Of a DNA stretch of 64,000 nt, positions 19,299 to 62,928 are shown in pieces. Every line of letters starts with the position of its first letter. Position 1 is the stretch's first letter. The notes below the pieces were generated by a model. It had not been told where the DNA came from. It was given only the letters and a program-made list of their open reading frames with translations, and did not search any database. A program made the translations under genes and the position numbers. Origin of the DNA: Hydractinia symbiolongicarpus (taxonomy: Eukaryota; Cnidaria; Hydrozoa; Anthoathecata; Hydractiniidae); assembly GCF_029227915.1 (NCBI RefSeq), contig NC_079888.1:6567001-6631000 (forward strand), in the 5' to 3' direction.

Positions 19299-19309
19299 AC
19301 ACATCAATT

Positions 19310-19830
19310 TTAGGATTTCGACTACGAACGTGCATTATAATCTGCAGGTGTTAGATTGAAGCTAGCTAGACTTTTCTTTTACGTTGTTATAAAAATAATT
19401 TATCCTAAACAATTGTTTTCTTTCTTTATGTGTTATCTTCACCTACTAGCTAAAGTAGCAGAATGTAAACAAACTTCCACAAAATTTCCTGCTGTTGTTT
19501 TTTTTAGTTTAACCTTCAAGTCATCTGTCTCGATAGGATGTTTTATGCTTCAGTGTAGCTAGATGATCTTGTAAATATTTTGTGATAGCGTTTATTTTTC
19601 GGACGTCCACACGAGTTTATTTTATGAGACAAAAAATGTTGCTACCAATTTTGCAAATAACTTATTTATTTTATTTAAACCGTTGCTGCGGGAAAGTTCT
19701 TCTTTAAATAACCGTTCAAAAGTGATTTAGTATACTTGCACTACGCGATTCAACCGAATCCACTGCTCGATTCACCTGCATTTAAACGTTCAAAGCTGGG
19801 TCACTAGTTTCTATTCTAACACCTGTACTT
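19310..19830. repeat. Diverged interspersed repeat, further copy
   Basis: Shares the landmarks CGACTACGAACGT, GCTAGCTAG, TTATTTAAACCG and GTTCAAAGCTGGGTCAC with the copies at 12990-14300 and 20120-20585. Confidence 0.45.
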
Positions 19831-23172: not shown

Positions 23173-23230
23173 ATGATAATCTTAATGATTTTGTGTGCTT
23201 TAATGCATAATTCGTTTGCTGAGTGGAAAA
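23173..23230 (+). other. RTK-A exon 1: signal peptide
   Basis: ATG to donor A|GTAAGG, 58 nt, phase 1. Encodes [19 protein letters not shown], a clean signal peptide with likely cleavage after the Ala at 16. Joining to 23544 gives an Asn and then LFPYG, exactly where RTK-B has its Glu and LFPYG. Confidence 0.75.
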
Positions 23231-26200
23231 GTAAGGAAATTTGATTATGTGTCTTGTGATTCTTTTTTAATGTCGTCTGATGTCTGGATTAATGTGTATT
23301 TCTTTTTTCTGTGTAAAACAACTCCCTGTTGTTTACTTGTCTCCTCGAGTACTTCTTTTTTATAACTTTATTTGTTTGTGATGATAAGCGTACTACTTCG
23401 TGCATCGCTCACATAACGCTTGACAGTGAAAAACATTCGATTAGCAGTAGCCGCACTGTAACATCCTATTTATCCATTTGAATTCGCGTTAACATGCGTT
23501 CTCCTCCTTCCCCATTATGATGCAGTGTTTTACATTTTTTTAGACCTTTTTCCATACGGTTTTGCAAATGGAGATAGAAGACATTGTAGTGATGACGTAA
23601 TGGAGTTTCAGTTACAACAACCTATGCTTTTGTTCTCAAAAGAGGCGAACAAAATTTATGTGAGTAAAAAGCATCTTTATGATTTTGTAAAAAGTATAAC
23701 ATCCTTGAATTATTGTAAATCTGATTTTAAGTGATGTAATGTCTTTATAACAAATACTTTTCGTTCATAACCGAAATAATAGAGCCAAAAAATAGTTTTC
23801 TCTTAGAATCGTTTTTCTCTCATTCGTACACCATTTCTTTGTTACACATACCGGAAATCTCCTCAGTTTTATTACTCGACCAATCTGATTTGTGTGCCTG
23901 GGAAGAAATTCTATGTTTACATACTCAAAAAAAACATATTCAAGCAAATTTAATTCTTAACGGTTTAAAAGTGTGATTCTCGTAAGTGAATGCTAGTCAA
24001 GACATGCTAGTCATGTCTACAGCGCTCTCGATAATTATCTCTCTATAGTGTCACATCTTCTCCTCTTCCTATGTCAATGTACAATTTGAGCGGGGTACCG
24101 ATCAGGGACTTCAACTATAGAATAGAGAGAGGGGAAGAGAGATTGAAATTAATCAGCTACACGGTTCTTTGTATTCAAACAATGGGTTACGTTTTATCGG
24201 TTTATTTAAACCTACTTTTGTTGCTTAATTAGTATTTATTCCCGTTTACATCATTACAGTACAGTTAATTCCCTTTAATTCGAATCTCTATAACTCAAAT
24301 ATTTCTATAATTCGAACGAGTGCGTTTTACAATTCGAAACTTTCTATAATTCAAACAGTTTTTTTAGTCTCTTCATTCTCTCCCTAATTCGAATTAGGGA
24401 GAGAAAAGTGTAAACAAGGCTTTGACAAATCCGAATGTTTTTCTAATGTTCAAAAATTGTCTTTTGAACTTTATTTTCAAAACGAAAGCATTTTTCAAAG
24501 CATTTTTACATCGTTTGGTGTCGACCTGAGAAAATCACTTGGTGATGTAACTCGTCGAGTCTCTCCATGGTAAAGCAATCAAATATTCAACAATTTTTCA
24601 AATAAAGTTTCTTTTTTGTGTAAACTATGAAAATAAAGATTGAATGAAACTTGAACTATGTTTTCTTGATTTTGAAATTAACGGTATTTCTCTCTGTAAT
24701 TCGAATCTTCTCTCTCTGAAGTTTAAATGTCGAATTACGGAGACCATCTATCATTCGAATGCCTATAATTCGAACAAGAACTCTTCCCCGTGGGAATTCG
24801 AATTACGGAGAGTCAACTGTAATTATATAGTTCTACATGTAAAGGGGATGTTTTAACTGGTTGCGAAATAAGAGCTGTAAATATGTTTTTTTGTTATTTA
24901 GTACCAAATATAACCAAATATTTTAAGTAAATATTCTTGTAAATAAAAATCGCTTTACAAGAAGATCGATGCCCAAAAATTAAATAAATAATTTTACATG
25001 CTATCTATTCTTTACAATTTTTTACATAGATTGATAAGAACGGATTAATCACAATGATGAAGCCACCTGTAAAGAATGTTGTGTTGTCAAGTTCAATAAC
25101 CAGCTTTGCAGTTTACCACAAGCCTCTTGATAAATGTAGCAGGGGCGACATATTTTACAGAGAATCTTATAATACAACCATCCTCAACAAAGCGAGTTCA
25201 TTCATTCGTCTGTACTCAAATCAAAGTTACGATATTGCGCAAGCTGTTTTAATAACCTATGAGAATGTTTACTCAACAGAAAATCCGAACGAGTTAAACA
25301 CATTTCAAGTCGTTTTTGTTACAGACAGGTATTATACATTCGCCATTATAAATTATGCTGATTTGGAATCAAATAATGCGATTGTTGGTTCTTCTGAGCC
25401 GTTTTGTAGTTGGAAGGAATTTATAGATTCAGAAAATAGCAGTCAGTTAGCTTCTACATCGAATATCAATGTAACAGGCGTTCATGTGTATGAAATGACA
25501 AAAACATGCAAAATAATGAGTAAGTCTTTTTATCCACAAAAACTAATTTTCCGATGCTTTAAGGTCTTCCTTTGACGTATGTTTTGCTCAAAGTCTTTAT
25601 CTCTTATCGGAAGGTGTATTTCATTGTTGTTTTTGTTGTTGTTGTCTTTCGTTGCTTCTTTGTGGGCTTTTTCCTTTGTTTTATAATGTGAAAAGAATGT
25701 TCAACTTTGAACAGCGATAACGTTTAAGAATGTACAAAAACAACTTGAATATCGGACATTTACTTTGTTTATCCTAATTTATGCGAAAATGATCTTTATT
25801 TGTATTTTATTTTCAGGTTTTTATCCGTATTACAGCAGCTTTGGTGTAAACACCGATCTTATAGACTCTGGAGTTGGAATGAAATATTATCAATCAAATT
25901 TGGTAGTAAGTAAAGAAATATTATCTATATTAAAATGCCCGTATAAGTCTGTCCATCTGCCTGTCTGTCTGTCACGCAAAATAGTAGCTTAGCTGCGCAT
26001 GTAGAGAAAAGCACGCAATGTGGTATAAAAAAGAACAGGCAAAACCGTGGATTTTTCCACGGGCTAACGACTAGTCTATAATATTATCTCAAATTTGCGG
26101 GACTTATTTTTGTAATATTAGACTTTATAGGAAAAACTAAATTTCGCAAAATTGCACTTTTCAGGAAATCTCAAAATAATATTCTACAAATATGAGAAAA

Positions 26201-29200
26201 AATTGATTGTTCGCAGAAATAAGTAATTAAATCGAAAAAGCATTCAAAATTCTTGAAAACGATAGGTAAAGAGATACTGATTAAGAGGGATATATTTTTC
26301 TCAAAACATTTCTCTGCATCGTTTTCCTGAAAAATGGCTATCCAATCGCAGTTATTAATTATTTTTCTGTAAAAAAGCCAAACTCTGGTGAATTTCAAAA
26401 TAAACTAAAAATGGCAAACATTAACATAAATTTGCCAGACTTTTTAAGTAGAAGTCTTGTCGATTGTAAGAGATTTGACGGTGTTGTTGGATCAATTTTT
26501 TCAAAGTACACTTCTGTGGTTAAACAAACTTTTAAAAAAGTGCCGAGAGTCAAAGATGTCAAATTTTAAAAGCGAGAATTATTTTATTTATATTTTATTT
26601 ATTTTATTTATATTTCTTTATTACCTTAATTTTGTTGTCTTTACTAATAATTAAATATCGAAAATATGTTTTTTAGGGAGTCTTTCATTTATACGAAACA
26701 TCCACAGCTGAAATTCGTGAAATGTTGCTCGAGTTTCACTTCCTAAGAGGCGATGAGTCTGCAATCGGTCGATATCGCGAAGTATATGATACCAACACAC
26801 TCAACCGTGCCACAAATGAAATTCGTCAAGCCACTGGAAGTAACTTTACAGCCCAACGCGCCTATCTGCTTTCAATGACAGAATTCAAATTGTCCCAACC
26901 AACTGATGTTAGTTATCCACCGACATTACAAGTTTTAGTCGCACGTGACACCGATCTGGTTTATGCGACTTTTGTTTTTCACAAGCCATATGATGTGATG
27001 ACAGAAAGCCATAATTATGATTATCCAAAACGTACTATATACATGCAAAATGATTGGTTAAAAACATGGCTTCTTTACAACAAGGATTTGTATTCTGCTG
27101 GCGCCTATGTTCTGCCGATACCTTTAAATGCCAAAAAGATTGGTATGCGTCATTAATTTTATATTAATCTTCTTGAACTGGTGTAAACGTGCACGAATTT
27201 TTTTATAAGCATAGTTGAACGTTTAGCCAATGTTGACAAAACTTCACAGAGGCTTGGGAATGTCTGTACGTTGCGTACATATTCTTGCAGGTAAAAAGCA
27301 GGACAATATGTAGCTATTATACGTAAAATAAACTAAATGTAAGTCCATGAAATACAAGGTAGCTTTTTTATTTCTTTTATTTGCGTAGAACTTTACCCAT
27401 ATGGTGAACAGAGCGGAGATGAGACAAAACCCAGCGAGGATTACCACGCCTTCAATAGATCTTTAATGGATGAAGTTGAAAATGAAATGACTCTTTTTAA
27501 GAAATCATATTCACCTTTGAATGCCATAAAACGGGTAGCATTTCCTAACATGAAGGAAGGGTTTTACGTAAGTATCAGTTGTATTCTAGGAAATTAACTA
27601 TCGACAAAATTAGCTTCGGAAACGCGGTAAAACAAGATCTCTTACGTCAATTAAATTATTGCAGTGTCGGTTAACAATGTAACGAGAAAGTGTAATAAAA
27701 AAAATGACAAAAAAAATTTTTACTCTTTTTTCTTATGTGTACTTGTTAACCAGGTAAGACTCTAAAGTCAAGAAGATATTGTTACTTAATGGAAACAGTT
27801 TCAAGGAATCCGCTGTAATACTTAATTTCACTAGTTGTCTACATTTGTGCGCATGATATCGAGAGTTAATTTTTTAAAAACTAGCTATGTTGCTTCTTAC
27901 TGCATAGCATAAAAAAATTTCGGTCCATACACATCCACAAAAATTGTTGTAAGCTGTAATTTTTGTTTTAATTTTTAGATCGCATGCTCAAGTAGAAGAC
28001 GCATTTTAGATCTTTTTAACTTAACGTATAGAGAGACGAGTGATAATTTCACCCTTTTAAAAGCCACACAAGACATTAGGACTGCTCACAATTTAAATTT
28101 TTATCCAACCAAATGCGTCGTTATTACCATGAACGTAGGTTTTCCAATCAACAACGTGTTTCAAATCGTGTTTGCTATAAACGGGGAAACCATATACAGC
28201 ATTACTAGAACTCCTTACAAATGGGGATATTTTCAGTACTATGTCTATTACAAGTACTGCAAGTTTTTTGGTCACGCAACAAAAAACGACATGAAAGCAT
28301 CTGTCTCCTTGGTTACAAGAAGAAAGTGCCCTAAACCAGGTAAAGTTTGATTAATTTTACCTCTTCGTTAATTTAATTTTATTTTTTTATTGAGAAGGAA
28401 CACATCATAGCAGTTTTTGCCATAACATTTTTTGAACCGCGGTGTTGCGAAGGATGATGCAGAAATAAATTTTGTTAATTTTAGTGACATACCCATTCGA
28501 AGGAAGATATGGTTACACTCATTCAACTGGCAGATTCCATACATTTTCCTATTACACGCAACGACCTGTGCCTTTTTTTACTTTAATGCGTGAAAAGCTT
28601 TTTGTGAGTATAAAATTTAGCCTTTTAAGCATTTTTTAACCATACCAACATTTTAAGTACTAGTGTATTATTTCAACAAGTGCTGGACCAAATTAAAAAC
28701 ACTTTTGATATCCACAGGTCAATGCAAAAGGGTTTGTATCAAATGAAGAGAGTTTATCAACAGAGACAACTGTGATGTCTTTCTATAAAGGTACTATTAG
28801 CAAGGCTCTCACAACGGAATACTCTGAAAGCTATCGGATTCTACAACAGGCTAGCAAAGATGTTCAAGCATTCTCATCAAACAATTTTACAGCAAAACAC
28901 GCTTTTCTTATTGTGACTTCTGACTTTGGGGAAGGCAATTACGCTCAACTGGTTTTAGTTACCGACAAAAATCAAACGTATGCCATTTTGAATTATGAAG
29001 GAGAATTGATCAACGAAGGCTACGTTGGCTACTACGAACGCTTATGCATAGGGAAGACATACGCAGCAGGAAATGAGAGTAAAAAGTTGGTTTTCACTTC
29101 AAACATCAATGTACCTGGACGACATGTGATAAGACTCACACCCGATAGATGTAGCAAAACAAGTAAGGATTTTAAAAATATCACTCATCTGTTTAGTCAG

Positions 29201-32200
29201 CACTCGAATAAGCCTGAAATAAACTCACTTGTTCATGACATCATAGTATTTAAATTATTCAATGACAAGTAAGGATGATATAAATTTCTGTTTTCTAGTT
29301 TGTTACGATTATGTGATGATTTCTGAACACGTTTGAAAAATTTGATACCTTGTAAATAGTTGACTATATTTTCTTTGTTAAATTTTTACACTGTCTCACT
29401 GTAGGTTTGTTCCCGTACGGCAGTGCTGCGAATGATACAAAGATGAAGAGAGGCGATAATATTGCAGAGAAAGTTGTTTTAAAGACTCCTGTTCCTTTTT
29501 ATACAAAAATGGAGGACACCTTTTATGTAAGTTATAAAAACAACACCACAAAACCAGTTGATGCCAATTGACATTTCTAATATTGGGCAAAATTGCCTGC
29601 ATGAACTCCATTACGCATATGAAATTCCTGAAATTTAATACTAGCTTTAGAATAATTTTGCACGAGCTATAGTGTATCGAGCTTAAGAGCTTGCGCATTT
29701 TAAAGGAGGAAGATATGGTTATTTCGAAACAAAACTGTTAATATCGTTTAAACTGTAAGAAACAGATAATCTAGTTTTGTCAACTTCATTCCTATACGGC
29801 TGATGTTTAAATTTTACTTTGACACCTGCACCGGAAAATTCACTTCAAATTCACACTTTCAACTTGTCTTTACACTTCTTATACGTAAAAAAAGTCCGCT
29901 AAAAGTTCTACATTTCCCATTTAAAATAAATACAGTTGTTTTACATTGAAAGAAGATAAGAAAACATAATTATACCACAAGGAGCTTTGAAAAGTTGCAC
30001 AACTTAAAGAATCGAAACGCGAAAAAACTGTATAAATGTCGCGTAATATTGCCTACTTGGGCGTTAAAAGGCGAAAAGTATCATTCGTCAAATTTTACTA
30101 ACAAAATAAGTGCTGATAATTTTACTTGGTCAGTGGTTAATTTCTGGTTAATAATTGTTTAGATCAGCGTGAACGGTTTGATATCAATTGGAATTCCGGT
30201 TACGTGGAAATTACCTAAAACTGCTAACTTTAAACTTTATCCAGGAAACAAATATCTCTACCCAGGTAATGTATTAACGCCATATCATACAAACTTGGAT
30301 ACTACACACAGTGGCGCTATATACTACAGAGAAACGCAAGAACCAGACATCATTTCCAGCATCAATACCGACCTTAATTCTTTTTTCAACTTCTCTTCCA
30401 CTCGCTATGCTTTCATTGTGACTTATATTGATGTTCCAAAACACAATGCTCAACATGAAAAAAATTCTTTTCAAATCATACTTGCGCATGATGGTGTAAA
30501 CCATTCTTATGTGATGTATAAATACACGCAACTAAACAGTGTGGATGTCCATCCTGTTCTCCTGTCGATGGAATATTGCTTGGTAGTAGAAACAGAACAA
30601 TTTATAAAGAGCGCAACATCTCTTGTCAGAGCTTCTAACACTAATGAACAAGGAAAAATTATAGCAAAAATACAAGATGGTGGATTATGTGATCAATACA
30701 GCGATGCGGTCAACAATCCAGGTATAGAGTTTTCAAATGGGTGTAACTGTATTTATAATTGAAAATTATAGGTGTGATTTCTGTCAAAATTGCATATGTT
30801 GAGATAAGGTAGTTGTATTAAACAAAACCTTGTTGACATTTTGATTTTTAATTGCATCAAGATGGATCGTTTTTAGATAGACCCAGATTTAAATCAAGAA
30901 ATAAATATATGGCAACCATAATAGGCCTGTACGAAAGTGAAAATGAGCAAATTTTCTTCCTGATGACAGTTGCCAAAATAAGAGACATGTTTTCAACTGT
31001 TTTGAAATATAATTTAAAATTATTATTTTGAAAATTATAAACAACTAAACATCTGTATTTTAGAGTCTTAATGTAAACGTTTAAGTATGGCAAACCCTGT
31101 TCTTAAATTTGCATATGTTCTTTATTTCTTTTCTTTTTATAAGATTGTACAGCTCTACATCTAGCATTCTTGTTTCAGGCAAATTTACGCGTAGAATGTC
31201 TCGGTTGGAAGCGGTTTTTAATTTTCCTTTCCTGGAATACATTTCGAATCAGTTGATTAAGGAAGCATACATTAGAAGCGAAAGAAGTACACGTAATTTT
31301 TAGAATAATAAACAACAAGAGTCAGCTACTGGTGGTATAAAAATGTTCATTTAAATGTCACCTTAAATAAGCACAGAGTAAAATAAAATTTCTGAAAAGT
31401 AGATTTGAGAAAATAATTTTTCGTAAAATATTTAAACGGCTTATAAGCATAAAAAATCCTGGCGAACTATCCCAACATAATTTAGTCGCGAAAAGCATTC
31501 TTTATTAATTTCTTTTTCTTTTTTATTTAAACTAAGGTACTTACGCTATAGTTTTTCTTGAAATCTTTTTCAGATGGGAAACCAGAAGCCTTTCAACTAC
31601 TCAAGTTAGGATATGATTTTGCATCTTTCGTTTGGAAAAAAGCAATGAATCATCCTCAGCAAATCATGACATTCAAAAAGGGCGATTGGGAAGGAAAGTC
31701 AAGTAATTCCTGCCCTGGTGAACTTTCAAGTTATATGGAAGTTCTTTACCTACGAATCAATCAAACATACCATGTGGAACTTCTGACAGAATCCGGATCA
31801 AGCAATTTAGAACTTTCAACCAAAAATAAGTTAGGTTAGAACGATACTTGTTTTCGATTTAAACACTGTAAACCAATTTTTTGTTTTTTAACACCACAGG
31901 CTCAATGTGACTTACGTTTCTGTGTATTTCGCAGACTGGACTGTTGCTTAGTTGTGTCTTGTTAACTAACTTCTTTAAGGGATCAAACTTATATGTTTGC
32001 TTGCTCAGTTGTTCGCTAAGCAAAATCTCCGCTCTGCCTAAATTTCGTTTTTCGTCGTACGAAACCTATTGATTCTTGTGATAAGAAAGGTTTTGTTGTC
32101 TTTTTTGCTTACACGAGACTGGTTATTGCTTATGAGTTTGGTTTGTATTTTTTGAAAGCACCTGGTATTTCTGTAGCTTGCAAAAGTTGAGAGGTTGTAG

Positions 32201-35200
32201 ATAGGCGCATACATGTGTTGCCGTTTCCTAAATATCATAATTCGTACGGGAATTCTGGGCAAAATTATGAAATTAAATTGATGTTCCATCATTTTACAAA
32301 GGTGCAAGCAGAAATTTAATAATTCACTCGTGCGCAAATTAATACGAAAAAGAGAATTATATTTTTCAGAAAAATTAAAATAAAAAAAGTCATTGGTTTT
32401 AAAACTAAAAACAACCCGAGTCTAAATTTCCCCATGAATTAAGAACAATACAGAATGTAACTTCTTTGTTTTATATTTATATTTATACTGGCTCGAAAAA
32501 AACTTGATTTGACGTCACCATCTTTTTCATCACGCTTTTTTTCACCATTTTGTGGAAAACAGAAACAAGTCCCAGTCACTAACGAAAACCGAGAAATCCC
32601 CAGGGTGCATGCTATAAGAAAAACAGCGTTTTGTACAAAATAAGAAAATTTGAAAGCAAACCAAAAAAAATTTTAACATGACGCAGAAGTCGTTATTATC
32701 TTCAGGGAGCGATATAAACATCTCATCTTCAATGTGAACTTTTTTGCAACTTTTGTTTTATGGTTTTTAAATTCGGTAGCATGTGCGTAATTTTCAATTT
32801 TGTTAGTCTGTTACGGTTAAATGGTTTTTAATTTCTATTTCACTTTAAGCCTCGCTCTCAAGAAGTGACAAACGTAAATAATCAAATAAACCGTTAGAGC
32901 TGGTTATGCATTTGCACTATGATTCTGAAAATTTCGGACTTTATTAAATTTTTACTAAACATGTCAAATATTTTAATACTTGTTTTTCATCAGATGTTTT
33001 TAAAAAAATTTGGCACACATCAAAAGAAATAAACTCGGAAAGTGAATAATCAATAACTGCCTAGTTAAATTTTAGACGCTGTTAAAGACGTGCATTTTAC
33101 TCAAGATGGCACCAAAGCTACGATGGATTGGAACATTGAATCCCACTTAATTGCCGAAATCTCTGGTTTCTACTTTTCTTTGACACACAGATCAACTGAT
33201 AACGATGAGTTAATAAAACTTAACTTTACGAGTTTTGATGTAACATATTCGTTCAATGGAACAATAGGTTCTGTTCATTATTTTGAAATCACGACATGGC
33301 TTCACAATCAAGCTAGTTCTGTTAAAAATGCAACGTACACCTTTACAGAAGGTAATGACTTCTTTACTACCAAGTTTCTTGACCCTGAGAGGCAAAATTA
33401 ACTAAATTCATGTCATAGAATATGGTAAACTACTCATAGATAGAAATAAGCTTAATGTTTATTATTAGGGTATAACAATACAGTTAACTACTGCTTCAGT
33501 TTTTGTTACAAGAAATTTCAGAAAGAGTAGTTTTCAATCACTTCGTAATGAAAAAATCAAACTGGCAACCTACCTAGGATTTTCAGCTACCAATTGTTTC
33601 TTGTTTATCTTCGGTTTTAATGCTTAATTAATATGTAATTTATACTAGCTATATAGCTAAAAATTTAGCTAGCAAAAACACATCCTGGGTAAGGGTACAA
33701 CGTATGTTTCTTGTCCTCATTAGTGTTTTATTTATACGTTGTGTTTATAGTTTTGAAGCAATAAAGTTAAGGACCCTGACGTTAGCAAAGACGCGCCAAA
33801 GCACCAAAAATTTTAATAAATAGTAAAAATTGTTTCCATTTTTGACAGTACAAGCGAGTAATTATAACGTATTTAAGTTTTTTTTACATCAGTAACGAAA
33901 ATTTGACGAAGATTTTCTGGAAATCCTTGCTTGTCTTTTTCTCCAATAAGCTTTGTTTTGATTTTAGAATCAAAATCGGATGTATCAGAGTTGATCATTA
34001 TTATATCATTATCCAGCGCAGCCTTCGTGATCATTCTTGTTTTGACTGTACTGTTCTATTACAAAAGAAAAAAAGCTAAAAGAAAAGCCAACAGATTTTT
34101 ATTATCACATGGCTCGAACAAGGTAAGAAATAATGAATACATGTTTCAATTTATGGTAACTACAAATTCTGACGTAATATATTAGCGTGAACATTTTTTT
34201 TGCCAGTTAGTCACGCAACAATTAGTGCACAAATGCATTGACACCATTTTTCAAATTTGATATTTTAATTCTTAGTTCATTTTTATTGTTACACACATAT
34301 CTATATTATATTATTCGTTGTTATGTCTTTGTTAGTCAAGTTAAAAACTGGTGTTGTAATCAAAAAACGCAATTTTTTTCGCACCTGTAATATAGAAATG
34401 ACCACCATCCAAGTAAATTTTCATGTTACCCTGATTTTCCACGTGTTAATAACTAGTTTGTAATAATTTTCTAGATTGATCCAGATCGAAGTATTCTTGA
34501 ACAATGCAACAATCTATACTACGATCCAAAATTTGAATTTCCAAGGCATAACATTTATTTGTTAAAAGTTCTTGGAGAAGGCACGTTTGGCCAAGTTTGG
34601 ATGGCTTCTGCAGCAGGCTTAGAATGGTTTCGTCCAAGGGCAAATAAAACAAAAAAGAGCGCTATTAAAAAGGCTTTGTCTACAAGAAGAAGTAAAAAGG
34701 TCGTAGCCGTAAAAACGTTAAAAGGTTTGTTGAGAGATGCATAATTTCCTAATCATACAAAAAAATAAAGGAAAAATATTTCTTTAAACTCTGCAAAAAT
34801 TTATTTTGATTTAGCAGACATTAACACGCTAACAGTGAACACTACATTTTGACAGGATGCTTTCATTATAGTAGAACTCTAAATACATATCTTTTCGGAA
34901 ATTTTTATAAACGAGATAGACATAATAAGCGAATGGGTTTCTTTTGGCAAATTGCAACTTTCTTTTATGAATTAAACAAGAAACTGAAGCGGTTTTAACA
35001 CTCACAATAAGACAACAGATAAATAAATTTCTTGAAAAAAATAATTAAAAAACCATCAAAATATCCGTATAAACGGATACAGCGAATATTGATCGATACG
35101 GCGCCCTAATTAAATTTGTTGTTGCATCCGCGGAACTCTGTTGCATATTAAACACTCTCACCCAGGGGTGTTACTAAATAACTGCGTAGACAAAAAAGAA

Positions 35201-39012: not shown

Positions 39013-39412
39013 TTAACCCTTTTCGGTCCAGGAGGAGGAGGGAGGGGTGTAAGAGCATGTGACTAATCCGCCCTGCAAATTTTTTCCGATTTTACCCAAT
39101 AATTGGAAAACTACGGGCAATGTAAAAACAGGAAAATATTTTAAATAACTTTTATTTAGCTATCTAGCAGAATGTGAAAACTCGCTTTAGAAATAAAGTA
39201 ATTGAATTTAGATAGTAGCATTTAAACAAACTTTAAGCTTTCGATGACGTCACAGAAAATAAGCTGACGCAAGTACAAATGTATTGCCGCTATATTCTTC
39301 CTTTTGTGACGTACTATAACTATGCCAAATTTAATTCAATATGAATAAGCCCATGAAAAGTTATTAAGGGGGAATGCCCCCGGTCATAATATAAACCCGG
39401 ACCAAATAGGAT
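39013..39412 (-). mobile_element. piggyBac-like MITE, copy 4 (internally deleted, decayed end)
   Basis: Left end TTAACCCTTTTCGGTCC is well kept; the right end GGACCAAATAGGATT is decayed and has lost its TTAA. The interior runs like copy 3 (CGATGACGTCACAG), inverted relative to copies 1 and 2 and shortened to about 400 bp. Confidence 0.65.
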
Positions 39413-41899: not shown

Positions 41900-41951
41900 A
41901 TGATTCCGTTTCTTTTAATCTTGCTGTTTGGAAAAAGTTTTTCTATGCAAG
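41900..41951 (+). other. RTK-B exon 1: signal peptide
   Basis: 52 nt, phase 1. Encodes [18 protein letters not shown] strong acceptor-like site (CTCTTTTCTCAG) ends only two bases before the ATG, implying a 5' UTR intron or a trans-splicing site. Confidence 0.75.
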
Positions 41952-53900: not shown

Positions 53901-56900
53901 AATAATTTCGCCGATTAAAGCCTTAATCAAGGATTAACCTCCTAATCAACCTCCTTGCTTTAATTCAACATCCACTTTTAACATCCAATTTCTTTCTGTG
54001 TACAACACTAGATTTCAGTTACGTTGCATTGCTTGATTCTTTTCGTGTAATATTTTCCCACATAGCTAGCGTTAGATCTTTCTCTAGGCAATTTAGTGTT
54101 TGAACGCTTTTTTTTCCATGGAAACGCAAATACATAACCACAACAGTTGATAAACATTTAACATCGTGTTGACTTGTTCCTCTGTAGTTCTGTTTCCATA
54201 TGGACCAAATGTTGGAGATGTAGAAATGCAGCGAGGTGATAATTATGTGGAAGTGATGAAGCTAAATACATCATTCCCGGGTTTTGAGAAGTCACTTTAT
54301 GTAAGTATTAGAGTAGCTTTTCATATGAAGTCAAATAATTTTTGTGTGTGTATATGTGTGCAAGTAAAAGTTTAACCATAGAAGAAACCATAAAATATAC
54401 ACTAGTAGGGCAGCGGTTAGCAAATCCACAATCAGGGTGGTGGGAGGTTTTTTAAATTTTTGAATAATACCATATTTTATCTTGAGCAATTTCTATCTCA
54501 AAAAAATATTTGGTCCTTTCTGGTTTTATTTACCTATATTATTTTTCTCTATCACAAACATTTTCCATCTGGAACAAATTTTTTGGTCCCTTGTTCAAGG
54601 TGAGAAATTCAACGTAGTAAGTGATTTTCTGACTTGTCGTCTATACGTTTCAGAAGACCACATATATACGACATATATAAGAGCACTTGTAATTTCAACA
54701 ATAAAAAATACATAATTTTGATTTCAAGGTTTTCCTGAGGAGAAAGAGGAGATATAATATGAGCGTTGGATTTACATTTAAGTGTACACGTCTCAATTTG
54801 TGAGTTTAACATGTTTAGATTGATACATGTCTTCATAAATTTCCTGTCAGCTAATAGCGGGTCGTGCTTACCACGCACGAAAACTTTTAGCTACGAATAA
54901 AAAACGCGATAAAATTTCACAGGTTAACGACTAGTTTAATATACTACACGATTCATTTAACACGTGTTTAATGGATTTTTAGATTAGTACAAATGGTGTT
55001 GTGTCACCAATGCTTAATACGTCAGTTGAAATTGATTATCATAGAGAAATGATGGATTATCCTTATGTTGCCATCGCACCATTTCATGGAGATTTTGATA
55101 CATCTCATAGTGGACACATTTATTACAGAGAATCAAGAGATCCTGAGTTATTAAGACAAATAAACGAATCTATTACAAAATCACAAATGGTTTATTCTCC
55201 AGTGACGCATGCGTTAGTCATATCTTTTGTTGATATACCCAATCATGATTCACCCCAAGAACGAAATACATTCCAAATAGTAATAGCCCACAATGCATCG
55301 CAAGATGTTTATATGGTTTTTAAGTACACACATTTAGATAGCACAAAGGGTTCGGCATTCTGGAAATACTGTGGAGAAAATAATTTGTTAGATCGAAGTA
55401 TATTCCATTATACAGAAAACCCGTCGACGCTAGTTGGAGGGTCAAATCCAAATGCAAATGTAGCGGGGGAATATTGGTTTCACAGCAAAATCGCTTGTCG
55501 TAAGAATATTTCCTACCGTTTGTTTTACCAGGTCTCTAGAGTGACACCGGCGATGCTATAGCGACACCGACGGCGTTATGGTGGCACTGACACCATACTT
55601 GCACAGCACTTTTTTTATCATTGACACTTCTTATTTATGCCGAAAAATAAATTTCATTTCTTTTCTAAATTTTAAATGAAGTTAGGAAGCGCATGAAAAA
55701 GCACATGGAGATTACTTCTGTTTTGCATATGTGGAATTTTTTTTTCTTAATAGGTGCTCAAACAGTACTACAGGACTTAAAACCAGTCCGGATTGGACAT
55801 GATTTCATCAAAGTGATGTGGAAGATGACCGCTGTTGATGATGTGCAATGGATGCGACTTCATGAATTTGGAAGTTTTGAAAATAAAACAAAAGTATTTT
55901 GTATTCATAGCAAAAGAACATCCTATCAAATTAACTATCTGGCTCCTGGTCAAACCTATGATATTGAGGTCTTCTCAAGAGTAGTACCTTTTACGCTTCG
56001 AAGATATGTTGGATTGTATGGCATCTCAACTCTTCCAATTGGTAAGGTGATTTGCTTCACTGTGCTATGACATTTTAAATCCCTGCAATCAAATTGCGGT
56101 TATCTTGGAAACCCGCGAAAATGTTGGGAAATTCTACTTCTCTCAAGTGTCAACACGTTTTCTGTGACGTCATCGAAAGCTTAAAAATTGGTCAAAATAC
56201 CGCCATCTACTTACATTACATAAATTACGAACTTTCACATTCTATTTGAAGTTTCTGGAAGCGAAAAAAGTTATTTAACGTATATTCTGTTTGTAACCTT
56301 CTTCGCCTAAAAAAATCCAAAAAAATTGTTTGTCCCAAATCCGAAAAGTAAACTGAAAAAAACGGAAAACCGTTTTAATCATGTGTGCAAAACATACAGA
56401 GGAATACTACTTGATAAAACAAAGTTGTGTTGTTAGTTTTAAGTTCTAAGGATAGTCCTAACAAGATTTATTATATCTTCCCGTTTATAAGGATTTCCTA
56501 GAGATTTTTAGGGATAGTTTCGAATAATAGCCAACATCAAAACCTCTGAGAGGTATGGGACCAAAACAGTTGGCACGCAGGTGTCATATAGATAAATATT
56601 GAAACTCAGTAAGTATCATACCTATCAAACATAACACGAAGGAGTTATTAAAAAAACCATCTGGGGGCGGAACCCCCCGCACCATAGGACCGAATAGGGT
56701 TAACCTAAAACAATTTAGCTATATCGCATTTTCTGAACCTATTTCAATTTTTGGCTGAAATTTTTTTCCACCAATTCTTTTAAGACAATATTTTATGTTT
56801 AAATGTTTAGCGGGCGTTCGTAATGTATTTGTGACACAACAGAAAACTGGAGGGAAACTTCATTGGTCTGTAAATCAAGAATTGTTCGTGGATGTTTTTA

Positions 56901-59900
56901 ATGTTCAAGTCATCGTTAACCACACTTCCACAGATTTTGATGGATCGTTCGAGTATAACTTTACTTTGTGGGATGGTACATATGAATTTAATGGAACTAT
57001 AGGTTCAGTACATAGCTTTGAGATAACATTGTGGTTTCATGATGAAGCAAGTCCCCCTGCAATATACTCATATACGCTGAAAGGTAGTAATTCATTATCA
57101 GAAAGTTTTCCAAGAATTTTTTTTTCGAACATTCGCGAATTTAAATTTCGTAAAATAATATTTTTTTATTTAAACTGCTTAAATACAACCCGCGAAATGT
57201 TTGAATGTCTTAAACCACGTAATTTTACTGTAATGTAAAAATGTATAATCTGGGCAAAAATTTCGCGCCTATTTTCAAACCGCGAAAATTTTTAACAATA
57301 CTGCCATGCATTGTTAAAAATACGTTCATAATGAATACAAGCAAGTGCATGTGTTTTTTTTTTATAAATTATTGCATTTTTATTATTTTCAACATATCCT
57401 TCAATTTCTCTGAATCTCTATTTTGCAAAAGACATTTGCAGTCATGCAGTAACTTTCACAAGTATTTAAAATTTTTATAGGAAACAAAAACGATTCAAAG
57501 TTGGACATTATCATATCAATCGCTTCTGTCTCTGTTTGTCTCATCATTGCGCTCATCTTGAGGTATCGTTACCAAAGAAAAAAGCTGAAACGAAAGGCGA
57601 ATCGATTTCTTTTAGCACGTGGAAATAAGAAGGTAGAACTTTGTATCATGTTAAAAATATTCCCTATGTTTCTAACATGTGTTTTTGAACAAAGACCTGA
57701 AATGCAAAACTCGTATGTTATTGGTTTCAAATTCCTGACATAGTTTACGCACAAAGTGGACATAAATTTTGGCAAAAATCAGAAATAATGTTTCAGTTTT
57801 TTACAACCCTCAATTTTCAGGAGTCAAACATTTGTCAAATACAAAAGAGTTAAGCTCTTTATATAAAATTGCATCAAAGAATGCATGCTTTTGAAGGAAG
57901 TTATTTCCAGAAATGTTAAGTTCACGATTGCAAGTAGTGTGATAGGCCAGTTACATTCTTCATACTATTCTGTCGTACCCTTAGTTGGATCCTGATCGAA
58001 GTATTCTTGAACAATGCAACAACTTAAGCTACGACCCAAAATTTGAATTTCCAAGAAATAACATTTCACTGCTGCGAGTTCTTGGAGAAGGTGCATTTGG
58101 ACAAGTATGGATGGCCTCTGCACATGGAATAGAATGGTTAAGACCAAGAAGAAAGAACAAAGGGAGTATAGTGAAAAAAATGTTCTCGAGAAATAACAGA
58201 AAAACTATTGTAGCCGTTAAATCATTAAAAGGTCGGTTGCTTTTCTTGTTGTCGTTTTTATATCTACTGTGTGACTTTCTTTAAGACTTTAAGGGGGATT
58301 TCCACTTAAAACAAAAATTTATCGAATCAATTGACATCAATTGTCAAAGAAAGATGAACGCAATTAGACTGCTGCCATCAATTGGCGTCGATTGATTGAC
58401 TTATATCTCATTTAAGGATTTACTAACCTTTGTAGCATTTACTTTCAGTGCACTTTTTCTAATGAACGTTATTCACTAATAAACAGAAGCTGTACGACAT
58501 CGGCTTTCAACCTACTCGAATAAGGGTTCTTAGCACGCATAAATAATACGCAATTCTTACAAGAATCGAGTATTATTACCGGCGAAATTTCGCGAGGAAA
58601 GTCTTTTGTAAATTCTTGAATCGCTAAATATACACATATGTCAAAAAGCAGAATTGACGGCCTCGTTAGCTAACATTTGTGAAGCTATCTAGAACTCCGC
58701 TAGCTGGAACTAATTATTGGTCCCTAGCGATAAATTACGGACGTTATCTGGAATTTTTTAGAAAATGTCATAGAAAACAGTTTGTTGTTTTGCATGTTCG
58801 AATTATTTTTCAACTTTCGATTTTGTACGGTTTTTTTATGTTCCTAATTTTTTGAAGACGTTGTATTCTTTTGACATCCCATTTTCCGTTCCGAGGGGCG
58901 TGATTGTTGGAGTGTGAGGTAATGAGGCTCAACTACTGCTCAACCAGTAGTTGAGTATTTGTTCATTAGCCCCCTCAATATTTTTAACACAAATACGCCA
59001 CTGGGTCCACTGAGAGTTCAAAATAACGATACAACTGTATTTGCATTGTAAAAAAATATTCATAAAGCGATATTTCTTCAAGCTTAAAAAAAAACTTTAT
59101 CTGAAAAGGAGCTGTTACATTGTTTATTTGTGACGACAAGGTGAAAAAGAAATTCATTACACACATTTCTACGCAAAACTTTCCAACTTGTGCATTCGCA
59201 AAAGTTTATCCAAAAACCTTTGCGTGTTTTCGCACTTGGAAAAGTTTCTCCGATCAAAGTATTCCAGTTAAGCTAAAAAAAAATATTGTGGTGAAAGCAA
59301 GAACAGAGATTTTGAAAGAGGAAAACAGTTGACTAAACATCTCTTCACCTGTTTCATAGAGATAACTTTTTTACTGTGGATTTTGAGGTGCAAAAGTAGT
59401 CTACACTTTCTCCTAAAGTGATTCGTCTATTTAGCTAGCGCAACTGAGAATGAATACAAAGATCTGGCAAACGAATTGAAACTTTTGATTCACATTGGTG
59501 AACATAGAAACATTGTAAACCTCCTTGGTGCTTGCACAAAAGACGACGATCTGCTAGTAATACTGGAATTTTGCTCGAAGGGTGCTTTACTAAGCTATAT
59601 TCGATTGCGTCGCGATGATTTCAAACCAACATGGTATCGTAATGAGGATGAGATTGTGAACTTTTTTTTACTAACTAGGATTGGTGTGCAAATTGCTGAT
59701 GGGATGAGCTTCCTAGAAGAAAAAAAAGTAAGGTTTCTCCTTGCTATTGATAATATGCCATATCAACGAAGTCTAGGCAACATTTTACCAGCAAGAGAAA
59801 TTACTTACTCAGAATTTAAACATATTACCCAATGCTGACTTATCCTATTCTCCTGGCTGGAAAAGCCATCTATATCTGACTAAGCTTCACATAAAAACAT

Positions 59901-62900
59901 TTTAAATGTTACATTACAGTAATGTGGATTTTTTAGTGTGTGCATCGAGATTTAGCGGCAAGAAACATTCTGTTGACTGATGATATGACTGTAAAAGTGG
60001 CAGATTTCGGTCTTGCGAGAGACACTACTGGGGAGAATTACTACCACAAGAAAACTGAGGGGATGCTTCCCATTAAATGGATGGCACCAGAAGCAATTAT
60101 TGAGCAGAAATACACTTCGAAGAGTGACGTGTAAGTCCCGCATTAATTCGCAGTACAGTTAGAACATTTGCTGTAAATGTGTAATGTCTGATGATATATT
60201 GCTACCCAAGGAGGGGGGGGGGGGGGGGGGAGGAGGCGGAATACCTTCCCTTGTTACAGCATGATAAAAAAGGCGGTATTGTGCGCAACAAAAGAATAAG
60301 TAAGGTGGCTTTCTAAAATTGAATAACTTGTCAAATTTTAAAACTCTCTTTAATCCTTTTTAAAAAATTGAAATTGCTTGGCTGGAAAGGGTTAAACTTT
60401 GTTGAACATCTGCGGAAAATACAACCGTGTCACTCGTAAAATACGAAAAAAACATTTTTTCAACATTTAAGAAAATATAATAATAAAAGGTTGGAAGTTT
60501 TGTCATTTAACGAATGTTTGTACTGTTTAGTAGTTTAGAGATACTAGTCGTTAGCCCGTGGAAAATCCACGTTTTCGCCCGTCGCAGCTAAGCTACCATT
60601 TTGCGTGACAGACAGACAGACATACAGACAGACAGACGTATATGGGCATTATAATACAGATTTACAATAAATTTTGTAAAAAACCTGTTACCAGTATTCC
60701 TAGGGAGTATAACGATCATTTTTTAACTTGTTTTTGTTGGACGGAGGCAACGATTTATTAAGTGGAATATGTTTTTACTGTTTCAGATGGTCTTTCGGTA
60801 TACTTTTATGGGAGATTTTTACACTCGGATCAACACCATATCCAACCATAAAAAATTCTGACATACTGCATTACATTAAAAGCGGAGAGAGGCTTGAAAG
60901 TCCGAAGGATTGTCCAGAAGATATCTATAAAGTGATGTTGGATTGTTGGTCGCATACCACTGAAGCAAGACCAAACTTTCTTGATGTAAGAAATGAGATT
61001 GACGGTATCCTAACAAGCAACGTAAGAATAATAACTTAAGTTTGATAAGTCCGCTTTACTTTCGAATTATTAACTTCAGAGAAAGTAGATTCTATGTGTA
61101 GCAGACAGTGTTGAAAATTTCTCATAATGGTGTTGTAGGAATTGGATAGATATTGCCCTTTCACCCCAATAAATTTATTGTTTTCTGTTAAGAAGATATT
61201 TAGTTTCATTTTTTTAGTACTGCAATAAAAAGTTGTTCTAAAGACTCATTGTTAGCAAATATGTTCTTTTCTTATCCTTAGGAACAAAGTGTTTTCTCGA
61301 AGACGACGATGGCAAGTGTTTATAATTTGGATTATCGAAAGACAGGAAAGTCGCAAACAGAAGCGTCAAATAAATATACAAAGGAAATGCCAAGGTACAA
61401 ACTTTAAAAATATAAAACAAGTCTAAGGAAATGGTTTCCCTTATGCAGGTTTTATTTTTATTTTTCTCTGCCAATGATTTTCTTCTTATCCCAATTAAAC
61501 TGATGACTTCTGCCTTAAAAATGGAAAGTGAGGGGCGGTGGTGATGCATTACGGAAAATGGAAAGGAAACGGTGATGCATTATGGTACACATAAATCCAA
61601 TACATTATACCTTGCTTATTAGTTATAACATTGATAAAGAAGAAGAAGAAGAAACTAACGGTGACGAGGACGACGGTAATGGCACCTTATACTTGACTCT
61701 TGGTGGAGATGATGAGAAGAATATTGGTGAAGTCAACAGTTCTTTCAACATGGATGAACAACCGTACGCAAACCAACTTGAACTAACCACGGATGATTCG
61801 TACCTAATTCTAAAGAAAAGCGACTTTACAGGTAACAGTGTCGACACGAAGGGACCTGCTGACGTTCAAGAGGACGCCGATGAGTCGGATCTTCGACTGA
61901 CAACAGAAAATACTCAATTTGAGAATACCTTTGAAATACAGGGAGAAGAGAAAAAAAGAATAACATGGAAAGATATAGAAGATGGCGAAACTTCACAAAG
62001 AGAGATCGAAAATGTTACCGAACTAGAAGTTAAATGTGTAGATAAAATCGCAACATATGCAAATCTGCAAGAAGACGAAGGTAGACTCAATACAGGAAGT
62101 AATAAAATGGGAGAATTTGAAATAGAAATGAAGACATACGGAGATGTGTTTTGTGGACCGACAAATGAGCCAATCAAAAATCAAGATGATAATGCTGAAC
62201 AACTTGAAGATACATCCAGCAAAGAGGCTGATGGTAAAATTGATCATTTTGTGGATAATGATGCCATTGAAAATGCATCTCAGCAACAGATCAAAAATTT
62301 AAATGTTGCAGAAACGAGCTTAACAGATAATGAAGTTAAACACATAGTTGAGATGCATTACCATGCATTGGATGTTGATGACATAAAGGAGAGATTGCGT
62401 CCTGCCGAAATTGAAAATGAAGAACAATGCAACAGCAAAAATGAGATAAAAGAAGATAAGGAAAACAAAGTTGAGGCAAACGAGGAATCTAATACCAATC
62501 ACGACGTAAATGATTGTCACACTAAAGACAAGAATACAAATGGATCTGATGATAAAAAAACAAAAGTAAAGACATATGTCGAGGGAGAAGTTGAGACGAA
62601 TGTCGAGGGAGAATTTGAGACGAATGTCGAGGGAGAAGTTGAGACGAATGTCGAGGGAGAAGTTGAGACGAATGTCGAGGGAGAAGTTGAGAAGAATGTC
62701 GAGGGAGAAGTTGAGAAGAATGTCGAGGGAGAAGTTGAGACGAATGTCGAGGGAGAAGTTGAGAAGAATGTCGAGGGAAAAGGTGAGAAGAATGTCGAGG
62801 GAGAAGTTGAGAAGAATGTCGAGGGAGAAGTTGAGACGAATGTCGAGGGAGAAGTTGAGACGAATGTTGAACGAAAGGATGATACAAATGTCGAACGAAA

Positions 62901-62928
62901 AGATGATACAAATGTCGAACGAAATTAA
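41900..62928 (+). CDS. RTK-B: receptor tyrosine kinase with five NIDO domains and long repetitive tail, 2038 aa
   Basis: Twenty-one coding exons: 41900-41951, 42454-42566, 43260-43749, 47088-47176, 47627-48092, 48989-49095, 50073-50135, 50460-50850, 51435-51565, 53379-53862, 54188-54300, 54983-55499, 55754-56041, 56811-57083, 57481-57632, 57985-58231, 59435-59727, 59937-60130, 60787-61021, 61282-61394, 61623-62928. All junctions GT-AG with matching phases; total 2039 codons with stop. Layout as RTK-A: signal peptide, NIDO x5 (18-1005), two FN3-like modules (1006-1192), TM (about 1200-1219), kinase (about 1270-1560). [12 protein letters not shown] (Lys 1322), HRDLAARN (Asp 1428), DFG (1446) and YY (1458-1459) are intact. 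The tail exon adds 434 residues, acidic, ending in 8-residue repeats. Several introns carry transposons. Weakest junctions: donors after 57632 (GTAGAA) and 58231 (GTCGGT). Confidence 0.87.
42454..43749 (+). other. RTK-B NIDO module 1 (2 exons)
   Basis: Exons 42454-42566 and 43260-43749. [43 protein letters not shown] and [12 protein letters not shown]. Exon B is 490 nt, the same as in RTK-A. Confidence 0.88.
43874..44104 (+). mobile_element. Helitron-like element, tandem copy 1, in RTK-B intron
   Basis: Starts TCTATATTATAATGCCCGT; ends with the TGTGGATTTTTCCAC hairpin and CTAACGAGAAG, where the usual CTAG is altered to GAAG. Copy 2 begins at the next base. Confidence 0.65.
44105..44294 (+). 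mobile_element. Helitron-like element, tandem copy 2
   Basis: Starts TCTCTTTAATAATAGCCGT; ends with the CGTGGATTTTTCCACG hairpin and TTAACGAG. About 120 bp before its end is nearly identical to copy 1. Confidence 0.65.
44297..45525 (+). mobile_element. Helitron-like element, copy 3 (1.2 kb)
   Basis: Starts TCTATATTAAATTACCCGT; ends with a decayed hairpin (AATTTTTCCACAGGCTAACC) and CTAG|T. Carries about 1 kb of extra internal sequence, bounded by inverted copies of GGAACTTGCGCAA (44349 and about 45459), perhaps a nested element or captured DNA. No Rep/helicase coding capacity. Confidence 0.55.
45526..47087. other. Remainder of RTK-B intron after the Helitrons
   Basis: AT-rich, no further element or exon that I can support. 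Confidence 0.3.
47088..48092 (+). other. RTK-B NIDO module 2 (2 exons), diverged
   Basis: Exons 47088-47176 and 47627-48092 (89 and 466 nt, identical to RTK-A). [20 protein letters not shown] is kept; NTFQ has become [10 protein letters not shown]; the end segment [14 protein letters not shown] matches [14 protein letters not shown] of RTK-A. Confidence 0.8.
48989..50850 (+). other. RTK-B NIDO module 3 (3 exons), diverged
   Basis: Exons 48989-49095, 50073-50135 and 50460-50850. The first two together (170 nt) correspond to the single 179-nt exon of RTK-A; the extra intron is phase 0. [16 protein letters not shown] and the YKYC segment match [15 protein letters not shown] and YKYC of RTK-A. 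Confidence 0.72.
49690..50033. repeat. 12-bp minisatellite (TAGCTGCTTCAC)n in the RTK-B-specific intron
   Basis: About 25 degenerate units of TAGCTGCWTCAY fill the part of the intron just before the acceptor of the 63-nt exon at 50073. Confidence 0.75.
51435..53862 (+). other. RTK-B NIDO module 4 (2 exons)
   Basis: Exons 51435-51565 and 53379-53862. [10 protein letters not shown] opens it; [26 protein letters not shown] and [14 protein letters not shown] follow; the YRE motif is lost, as in RTK-A module 4. Confidence 0.8.
51566..53378. other. Long RTK-B intron (1.8 kb)
   Basis: No element or exon supported; AT-rich. Confidence 0.3.
54188..55499 (+). other. RTK-B NIDO module 5 (2 exons)
   Basis: Exons 54188-54300 and 54983-55499. 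[44 protein letters not shown] and [11 protein letters not shown]: a typical NIDO copy. Confidence 0.87.
55754..57083 (+). other. RTK-B membrane-proximal beta-sandwich pair (FN3-like)
   Basis: Exons 55754-56041 and 56811-57083, both phase 1-1. The first shows the FN3 signature more clearly than RTK-A: FIKVMWK and [15 protein letters not shown]. The second has LHWSV and [13 protein letters not shown], matching [13 protein letters not shown] of RTK-A. Confidence 0.65.
56148..56703 (+). mobile_element. piggyBac-like MITE, copy 5 (5'-truncated), in RTK-B intron
   Basis: Ends AGGACCGAATAGGGTTAA at 56703. The interior follows copies 1 and 2 (TGACGTCATCGAAAGC, ACAAAGTTGTGTTGT). The left terminus is missing. 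Confidence 0.7.
57481..57632 (+). other. RTK-B transmembrane exon
   Basis: Hydrophobic helix [20 protein letters not shown] followed by [15 protein letters not shown]; same exon position and phase as RTK-A, one codon shorter. Confidence 0.85.
60213..60230. repeat. Poly-G run (18 G)
   Basis: An uninterrupted G run inside an RTK-B intron, followed by AGGAGGCGG; striking in AT-rich DNA. Confidence 0.8.
60544..60660 (-). mobile_element. Helitron-like element, short copy, inverted, in RTK-B intron
   Basis: Read on the minus strand it starts TCTGTATTATAATGCCCAT and ends with hairpin CGTGGATTTTCCACG, GGCTAACGA and CTAG followed by T. A GTCTGTCTGTCTGTC tract follows the 5' end, as in the other copies. 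Confidence 0.7.
61282..62928 (+). other. RTK-B cytoplasmic tail (2 exons), long and acidic
   Basis: Exons 61282-61394 and 61623-62928. The first about 70 residues of the last exon correspond to the RTK-A tail ([11 protein letters not shown] against [17 protein letters not shown] against DSLYLVM). YANQ and YANL fit the Grb2 YxN consensus. The rest is Glu/Asn/Lys-rich and ends in repeats. AATAAA lies at 63197-63202. Confidence 0.8.
62578..62928 (+). repeat. 24-bp coding minisatellite, VEGEVETN repeats
   Basis: Twelve 24-bp units encode VEGEVETN or close variants ([24 protein letters not shown]; 62578-62865), then two VERKDDTN units and a final VERN before the stop. Units are nearly identical at DNA level, so expansion is recent. 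Because the unit is a multiple of 3, long ORFs in other frames here are by-products. Confidence 0.9.

Follow-up and report, generated by a model that had tools for sequence, protein, structure and literature searches.

The 64,000-nucleotide window analyzed here, part of Hydractinia symbiolongicarpus contig C14, carries two tandem plus-strand genes for receptor tyrosine kinases (RTKs) whose ectodomains consist of NIDO modules followed by FN3-like domains. Gene 1 (23173-38019) comprises 20 exons and encodes 1660 amino acids, and gene 2 (41900-62928) comprises 21 exons and encodes 2038 amino acids; both are open from start to stop and all introns are GT-AG. The window was searched with splice-aware dynamic programming, the resulting chains were corrected by setting the two genes side by side and by a search for leaders, and the models were compared with NCBI proteins only after this editing. 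Two candidate exons (36146-36202 in gene 1 and 42718-42855 in gene 2) were rejected as spurious on comparing the two genes. Exon phases match throughout, gene 2 having one additional intron, and six exon lengths are common to both genes (490, 89, 466, 293, 194, and 235). Gene 1 corresponds to NCBI LOC130625556, of which isoform X2 (P0001) is identical to residues 243-1660 of our model. Gene 2 corresponds to LOC130625370, of which isoform X2 (P0008) is 99.4% identical over 2038 amino acids with zero mismatches and a single 12-residue splice difference, the isoform lacking the last 12 residues of the fourth kinase exon. Both records carry only the name "uncharacterized protein." A first-pass annotation, made from the sequence alone, had described two tandem RTK genes that splice without a break from signal peptide to stop; both chains do close, their outer coordinates are exactly the 23173 and 62928 of that annotation, and the NCBI proteins agree.

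Hydrophobic leaders with phase-1 donors at 23173 and 41900 are putative signal peptides, as judged by inspection of hydrophobicity, and P0008 has the same start and leader as the gene 2 model. One strongly hydrophobic transmembrane stretch per gene lies between ectodomain and kinase, from about residue 1190 in gene 1 and about residue 1201 in gene 2, in keeping with the previously proposed order of transmembrane segment, tyrosine kinase, and tail. Whole-protein Pfam searches return NIDO at 3.2e-40 and the kinase at 2.3e-88 for gene 1, and at 6.3e-43 and 7.4e-90 for gene 2 (searched up to residue 1680). The catalytic motifs are intact in the kinases of genes 1 and 2, whose activation loops each carry a pair of tyrosines (ENYYKK and ENYYHK, respectively), and the tails contain the tyrosine motifs EDLYLTL and DSLYLVM (gene 1) and GTLYLTL (gene 2). 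The C-terminal coding repeat of gene 2 (62576-62918) is a 24-bp minisatellite of 14.3 copies with a 93% match. The two proteins are 70.0% identical in the kinase domain versus 26.6-46.3% in the NIDO modules, a contrast between conserved kinase and divergent ectodomain suggesting that binding, rather than signaling, differs among the paralogs.

The NIDO hidden Markov model (PF06119) exceeds its curated cut-off of 25 bits in 5 of the 10 modules tested singly (gene 1 modules 1, 4, and 5; gene 2 modules 1 and 5; 27.2-75.8 bits), among them modules 1 and 5 of both genes, on which a failure of the model would have counted, by the first-pass annotation's own terms, against its claim. For the other modules, the relation to NIDO follows from exon phase and from profile comparison with controls. 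When the profile of each module pair is compared with the other four using hhalign, modules 2, 3, and 4 reach 96.1%, 95.5%, and 98.4%, respectively; 30 column-shuffled controls each for modules 2 and 3 reach at most 2.5% and 0.7%, respectively, and the FN, kinase, and tail profiles reach 0.1%. Single hhalign pairs are uneven, with values as low as 2.1% (module 1 vs. module 3), and a search of gene 2 module 5 against PDB sequences returned no match up to E 1. Judged by these profiles, modules 2 and 3 are homologous to the other NIDO modules, though degenerate, and the earlier count of five NIDO modules per gene is right by descent, with the qualification that the middle modules have diverged. 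Pfam searches of the FN regions gave nothing above cut-off. The model of the second FN3-like domain of gene 2 is a seven-stranded sandwich, and many FN3 domains are found among the Foldseek rows with probability 1.00 (template modeling score ~0.46-0.70, E 0.002-0.01); the single row of 1457 at E <=0.001 is a POMGNT2 chain, and other beta sandwiches also match. An FN3 fold for the second domain is thus supported by modeling, which bears out half of the earlier description of two FN3-like domains; the assignment of the first domain is unproven at the level of sequence.

Features of the two tandem genes and positions of related loci. NIDO-RTK, receptor tyrosine kinase with NIDO modules; m2-m4, NIDO modules 2-4; pLDDT, predicted local distance difference test score.
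Feature	Position	Strand	Evidence
Gene 1 exon 1, putative signal peptide, phase-1 donor	23173..23230	+	Hydrophobic leader; absent from P0001
Gene 1 NIDO module 1	23544..25519 (exons 23544-23659, 25030-25519)	+	Pfam NIDO E 5e-20
Gene 1 NIDO module 2, divergent	25817..27142 (25817-25905, 26677-27142)	+	Pfam E 0.045, below cut-off; m2 pair hhalign 96.1%
Gene 1 NIDO module 3, divergent	27389..28339 (27389-27567, 27979-28339)	+	Alone no Pfam match; m3 pair hhalign 95.5%
Gene 1 NIDO module 4	28485..29162 (28485-28603, 28718-29162)	+	Pfam E 4.5e-6, 27.2 bits vs. cut-off 25
Gene 1 NIDO module 5	29405..30721 (29405-29526, 30163-30721)	+	Pfam E 4.2e-17
Gene 1 FN3-like domain 1, single exon, phase 1-1	31574..31834	+	No Pfam match; gene 2 counterpart fn3 E 0.07
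Gene 1 FN3-like domain 2, single exon, phase 1-1	33076..33351	+	40.7% identity to gene 2 counterpart (modeled fold matches FN3)
Gene 1 transmembrane and juxtamembrane exon	33968..34122	+	Hydropathy 2.86 over 19 residues; other stretches <=1.6
Gene 1 tyrosine kinase	34475..36803 (34475-34724, 35496-35788, 35873-36066, 36569-36803)	+	PK_Tyr_Ser-Thr 2.3e-88; catalytic motifs intact
Gene 1 cytoplasmic tail, YLTL/YIVP/YLVM	36895..38019 (36895-37001, 37812-38019)	+	Model, motif scan
Gene 2 exon 1, putative signal peptide	41900..41951	+	Hydrophobic leader; same start in P0008
Gene 2 NIDO module 1	42454..43749 (42454-42566, 43260-43749)	+	Pfam E 2.7e-20
Gene 2 NIDO module 2, divergent	47088..48092 (47088-47176, 47627-48092)	+	No Pfam match; m2 pair hhalign 96.1%
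Gene 2 NIDO module 3, divergent	48989..50850 (48989-49095, 50073-50135, 50460-50850; extra phase-0 intron in short exon)	+	No Pfam match; m3 pair hhalign 95.5%
Gene 2 NIDO module 4	51435..53862 (51435-51565, 53379-53862)	+	Alone Pfam E 0.042, below cut-off; m4 pair hhalign 98.4%
Gene 2 NIDO module 5	54188..55499 (54188-54300, 54983-55499)	+	Pfam E 5.9e-21
Gene 2 FN3-like domain 1	55754..56041	+	fn3 E 0.07, NDNF FN3 E 0.032, both below cut-off
Gene 2 FN3-like domain 2	56811..57083	+	AlphaFold pLDDT 80.8, seven strands; Foldseek FN3 matches prob 1.00, E ~0.002-0.01
Gene 2 transmembrane and juxtamembrane exon	57481..57632	+	Hydropathy 2.71 over 19 residues; other stretches <=1.6
Gene 2 tyrosine kinase	57985..61021 (57985-58231, 59435-59727, 59937-60130, 60787-61021)	+	PK_Tyr_Ser-Thr 7.4e-90
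Gene 2 long acidic tail	61282..62928 (61282-61394, 61623-62928)	+	Model; coding minisatellite 62576-62918
NIDO-RTK loci beyond the window	C14:6.14, C14:14.59, C1:22.18, C2:17.94, C2:18.39, C2:18.78 Mb		Kinase rows with NIDO upstream
NIDO-RTK loci beyond the window, continued	C2:18.93, C2:24.95, C4:20.29, C8:5.40, C15:8.72 Mb		Kinase rows with NIDO upstream

The pair described by the first-pass annotation is real and belongs to a larger family. Searches of the whole genome, both of which score the best candidates only, gave at least 125 NIDO exon matches and at least 132 matches to the kinase of gene 1; when kinase rows no more than 10 kb apart are merged, all 132 fall into 64 loci. At 13 of these loci, NIDO is located upstream, on the same strand and no farther than 40 kb away, and at the other 51 it is not; by comparison, the zones reaching 40 kb downstream of NIDO matches make up ~0.4% of the genome. 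The 13 NIDO-bearing loci are those with four kinase-exon rows of this subfamily. For the kinase exon covering query residues 84-180 (36 rows), NIDO is found upstream in 13 of the 14 rows with at least 60% identity, the exception being a short match at C8:26936863, and in 0 of the 22 below. At each of the 11 loci other than genes 1 and 2, genomic DNA contains NIDO exons and kinase exons together with one or more exons resembling the FN type. Genes 1 and 2 belong to a family of ~13 loci for single-pass RTKs in which NIDO cassettes precede one or two FN3-like domains; a transmembrane exon comes next, and the kinase is of the FGFR/VEGFR group. NIDO and a tyrosine kinase occur together in at least eight NCBI Hydractinia proteins (P0001, P0008, P0009, P0011, P0012, P0018, P0095, and P0125) and in two further proteins from short contigs (P0010 and P0017). 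Two closely similar loci lie in opposite orientation at C2:18.778-18.815 Mb (minus strand) and C2:18.900-18.932 Mb (plus strand), and the plus-strand locus encodes P0125, to which exons of the minus-strand locus are ~87-96% identical. P0125 was also considered as the product of the C2a model and rejected at 39% identity, as it matches C2:18.93 Mb instead.

In both genes, a short exon (phase 1 to 0) and the long exon that follows it (phase 0 to 1) together encode each NIDO module; module 3 of gene 2 departs from this in having one additional phase-0 intron. The same pattern prevails in rough models of relatives on C8 (20 exons), at C2:17.92 Mb (35 exons), and at C14:6.13 Mb. Models at other loci (C14a, C2a, C15, C14c, C2d, C2b, and C8) are rough, with doubtful small or stretched exons and unreliable first exons. 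Since the cassette is a phase 1-1 unit, it can be duplicated or lost without a break in the reading frame, and this neutrality would explain the spread of array lengths in the family, which ranges from about 2 to 12 NIDO modules per locus. Pfam stretches number 2 in P0009, P0010, and P0011, 4 in P0018, 6 in P0012, and 11 in P0125 (counted up to E 5 for P0009-P0012 and P0018 and up to E 1 for P0125), and the model at C2:17.92 Mb has 12 long NIDO exons. The genome also contains multi-NIDO arrays with no exon like the gene 1 kinase nearby, located at C10:15.008-15.024 (L012-L013), C11:26.377-26.386 (L023), and C14:17.227 Mb (L025). These arrays are likewise mostly made of short-plus-long exon cassettes in rough models, and the C11 model, inspected by eye, has a Thr-rich stalk, a transmembrane-like segment, and a short tail. 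It is possible that such kinase-less arrays are ancestors or partners of the NIDO-RTKs.

The existence of kinase-less arrays raises the alternative that the loci are adjacent but separate genes, NIDO matrix proteins beside kinase genes, and that the joins between them are artefacts of splicing or gene prediction; the splice scores are indeed low at some joins (-0.9 at 35873, -1.0 at 57985). Yet the joined models agree residue for residue with NCBI proteins, phases close throughout, and the order of NIDO, FN-type, and kinase exons is repeated at 13 loci on six contigs, always on a single strand. Two relatives provide a further argument against separate genes. P0017 is a protein of 1784 amino acids on a 5934-bp contig that is 89.5% identical, without gaps, to P0018, whose locus has 16 exons over ~18 kb in a rough model, and P0010 is a protein of 1269 amino acids on a 4135-bp contig that is 86% identical to P0011, whose exons at C2:18.39 Mb extend across >6 kb. 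As both contigs are too short for introns and the matching genomic loci have many exons, the contigs are most simply explained as spliced RNA and less likely as processed copies. On the simplest reading, NIDO and kinase are on one molecule in these two relatives, and for genes 1 and 2 themselves they are joined in predicted NCBI models. Neither of the outcomes that the first-pass annotation had named as refuting, NIDO and kinase exons in separate transcripts or NIDO profiles failing on modules 1 and 5, was observed. We consider the separate-gene explanation extremely improbable.

Phylogenetic analysis of 36 kinase domains, including 10 sampled NIDO-RTK kinases and 18 cnidarian FGFR/VEGFR-type rows, places the NIDO-RTK kinases in one clade with support of 100/100. 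Support for the union of this clade with the 18 cnidarian FGFR/VEGFR-type kinases is 95/93, and the stem leading to the clade is long, at 0.79 changes per column. The tree has few outgroups, with long branches, and the amphioxus sequence, a single domain taken from a protein with several kinases, is misplaced on a branch of 2.47. Among the best 60 of 2383 solved-structure matches of the kinase, 59 are FGFR1-3 and the first row is EGFR. The best 120 of 7657 proteins listed include nine with PF06119, seven of them named Hydractinia, and FGFR/VEGFR-type proteins named Hydra, Clytia, Rhopilema, Nematostella, and corals, which have Ig-type domains and not NIDO. An ectodomain search returned 15 proteins: 4 NIDO-kinase proteins (three named Hydractinia), 5 nematode NIDO-EGF proteins, and 6 nidogens. 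Among the matches listed in these kinase and ectodomain searches, no NIDO-kinase protein comes from another named species; because the searches pre-filter by length or shared words and list the best rows, absence elsewhere is indicated rather than proven. The "undescribed cnidarian receptor family" of the first-pass annotation holds as an RTK family with repeated NIDO, of which our searches of open-access papers listed no description and which is shown for Hydractinia, not for cnidarians at large.

The proximity of the kinase to FGFR in the solved-structure matches listed and its grouping with cnidarian FGFR/VEGFR-type kinases would also fit ordinary FGF or VEGF receptors that retain their original ligands and in which the NIDO array serves as a passive spacer. 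Ligand binding by FGF and VEGF receptors takes place through Ig domains. We find this explanation very unlikely given that no Ig domain was detected in any family member scanned by Pfam, genes 1 and 2 included, and that the same species already has an Ig-bearing FGFR2-like protein (P0022).

Instead, we favor a scenario in which an FGFR/VEGFR-type kinase end was joined once to a NIDO-array ectodomain like those of the kinase-less arrays in the same genome, with spread afterwards by tandem and dispersed duplication. The receptors would bind extended extracellular partners, either matrix or cell-surface proteins and perhaps other NIDO-array proteins. Receptors brought together in this way would trans-phosphorylate the paired activation-loop tyrosines, and SH2 adaptors may be recruited to tail motifs such as YLTL. 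Taken as a whole, a family with a single fusion origin and clustering-type signaling is in our judgment a highly probable explanation.

Several observations weigh against this reading or parts of it. The NCBI isoform of gene 1, P0001, begins in exon 4 and includes neither leader nor module 1. Half of the ten modules fall below the NIDO cut-off when tested singly: two are sub-threshold (gene 1 module 2, E 0.045; gene 2 module 4, E 0.042), and gene 1 module 3 and gene 2 modules 2 and 3 have no Pfam match. An AlphaFold model of the gene 1 module 3 long exon, made with its nine sibling exons as alignment, reaches a pLDDT of 73.6, and no PDB entry matches it at E 0.001; such a middling model neither supports nor refutes a NIDO fold. 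The first FN3-like domain has weak sequence matches in gene 2 (fn3 E 0.07, NDNF FN3 E 0.032) and none in gene 1. A kinase fragment of 41 residues at C8:26936863, with 66% identity, has no NIDO nearby. The C15 member (C15:8.721-8.738 Mb, P0018) may lack catalytic activity: P0018 and P0017 have HRDLAART and HRDLGART, respectively, together with DLG, in place of HRDLAARN and DFG, so that Thr replaces the catalytic-loop Asn in both likely orthologs; that the altered motifs are common to both suggests, from the sequences, a retained pseudokinase, and members of the family need not all signal by their own kinase. Finally, the ectodomains of P0017 and P0018 do not evolve faster than the kinase (90.2% vs. 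91.2% identity in this one pair), an argument against runaway divergence of the ectodomain between species. Fast ectodomain evolution even between orthologs, which we had considered, is unsupported by this sole pair compared.

With respect to function, the first-pass annotation proposed that the receptors sense matrix or large adhesive ligands, and we similarly infer that they may do so. In its most specific form, this would be a conserved sensor of matrix or basement membrane, comparable to DDR, with NIDO arrays that recognize one fixed matrix component, for instance laminin, collagen, or a partner of nidogen. NIDO does occur in nidogens, which come next after the family itself in the ectodomain search, and FN3-like stalks would fit a matrix-binding receptor; against a fixed sensor, 13 loci are found in one genome, and module number (~2-12) and sequence (27-46% between the tandem genes) are more variable than expected for one fixed ligand. 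We regard it as possible, if doubtful. A second proposal is a diversified recognition system in which paralogs bind different partners, such as microbes, other colonies, or NIDO-array surface proteins, with gain and loss of cassettes. Tandem and dispersed copies, the closely similar opposite-orientation arrays at C2:18.78 and 18.93 Mb, a conserved kinase beneath a divergent ectodomain, and frame-neutral cassettes are consistent with this proposal, whereas the one likely ortholog pair, P0017/P0018, shows no excess ectodomain change, and we think it unlikely. Hydractinia is known for colony recognition, regeneration, and stem cells. One could speculate about a contact or non-self recognition system in which paralogs differ in their frame-neutral, exchangeable NIDO cassettes and in the surface partners they detect, some of these being kinase-less multi-NIDO proteins, and signal through one conserved FGFR-type kinase, with at least one pseudokinase member as a modulator, which strikes us as a distinctly improbable extension.

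Elsewhere in the window, an intronless frame of 819 amino acids (stop to stop) at 15528-17987 on the minus strand matches class C G-protein-coupled receptors (7tm_3, 1.6e-34), with ANF_receptor sub-threshold. Positions 1-411 and 528-938 form a direct duplication whose translated matches are mostly 100% identical. Dispersed related repeats on both strands (1224-1867, 7549-8166, 18870-19310, 39167-39338, and 56109-56667) are ~47-84% alike when translated and are probably an old transposon family; one copy sits within an intron of gene 2.

Among the papers listed in our searches of the open-access PMC literature, none describes NIDO-bearing RTKs. The term "nido" is absent from the main text of a holozoan tyrosine-kinome survey (PMC8662651) and from that of a Hydractinia paper (PMC12549020); in the part seen of a further paper with both Hydractinia and "nido" (PMC8260672), NIDO occurs only within a list of extracellular domains.

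Compared with known systems, the NIDO-RTKs resemble cnidarian FGFR/VEGFR-type RTKs in kinase grouping (95/93) and in the transmembrane segment before the kinase. In contrast to the Ig-type ectodomain of those receptors, they have a variable number of NIDO modules plus FN3-like domains, no Ig domain that we found, and a kinase clade of their own. With nidogen-1 and the nematode NIDO-EGF proteins they have the NIDO domain in common; unlike the NIDO-RTKs, the 11 NIDO proteins returned from these two groups combine NIDO with EGF-type domains and contain no kinase, and the nidogens among them presumably also have G2F and further domains typical of the matrix. SUSD2, MUC4, and tectorins are also NIDO proteins. 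The kinase-less multi-NIDO genes on C10, C11, and C14 use, in rough models, the same exon cassette as the NIDO-RTKs and differ in having no exon like the gene 1 kinase nearby, the C11 model having a short cytoplasmic tail. DDR receptors, with FA58C, and choanoflagellate RTKs are further examples of unusual non-Ig ectodomains that likely read matrix or adhesive ligands, and neither is known to contain NIDO. Ectodomains are the basis on which RTK classes are distinguished, and the majority of classes occur widely among animals. The combination of an FGFR/VEGFR-type kinase with nidogen-module arrays at ~13 loci represents a clear case of a late-arising receptor class, with a likely exon-phase mechanism that can be seen in the genes, and it offers a testable receptor set in a tractable model animal. 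The NIDO-RTKs are a new RTK ectodomain class within a known kind of receptor.

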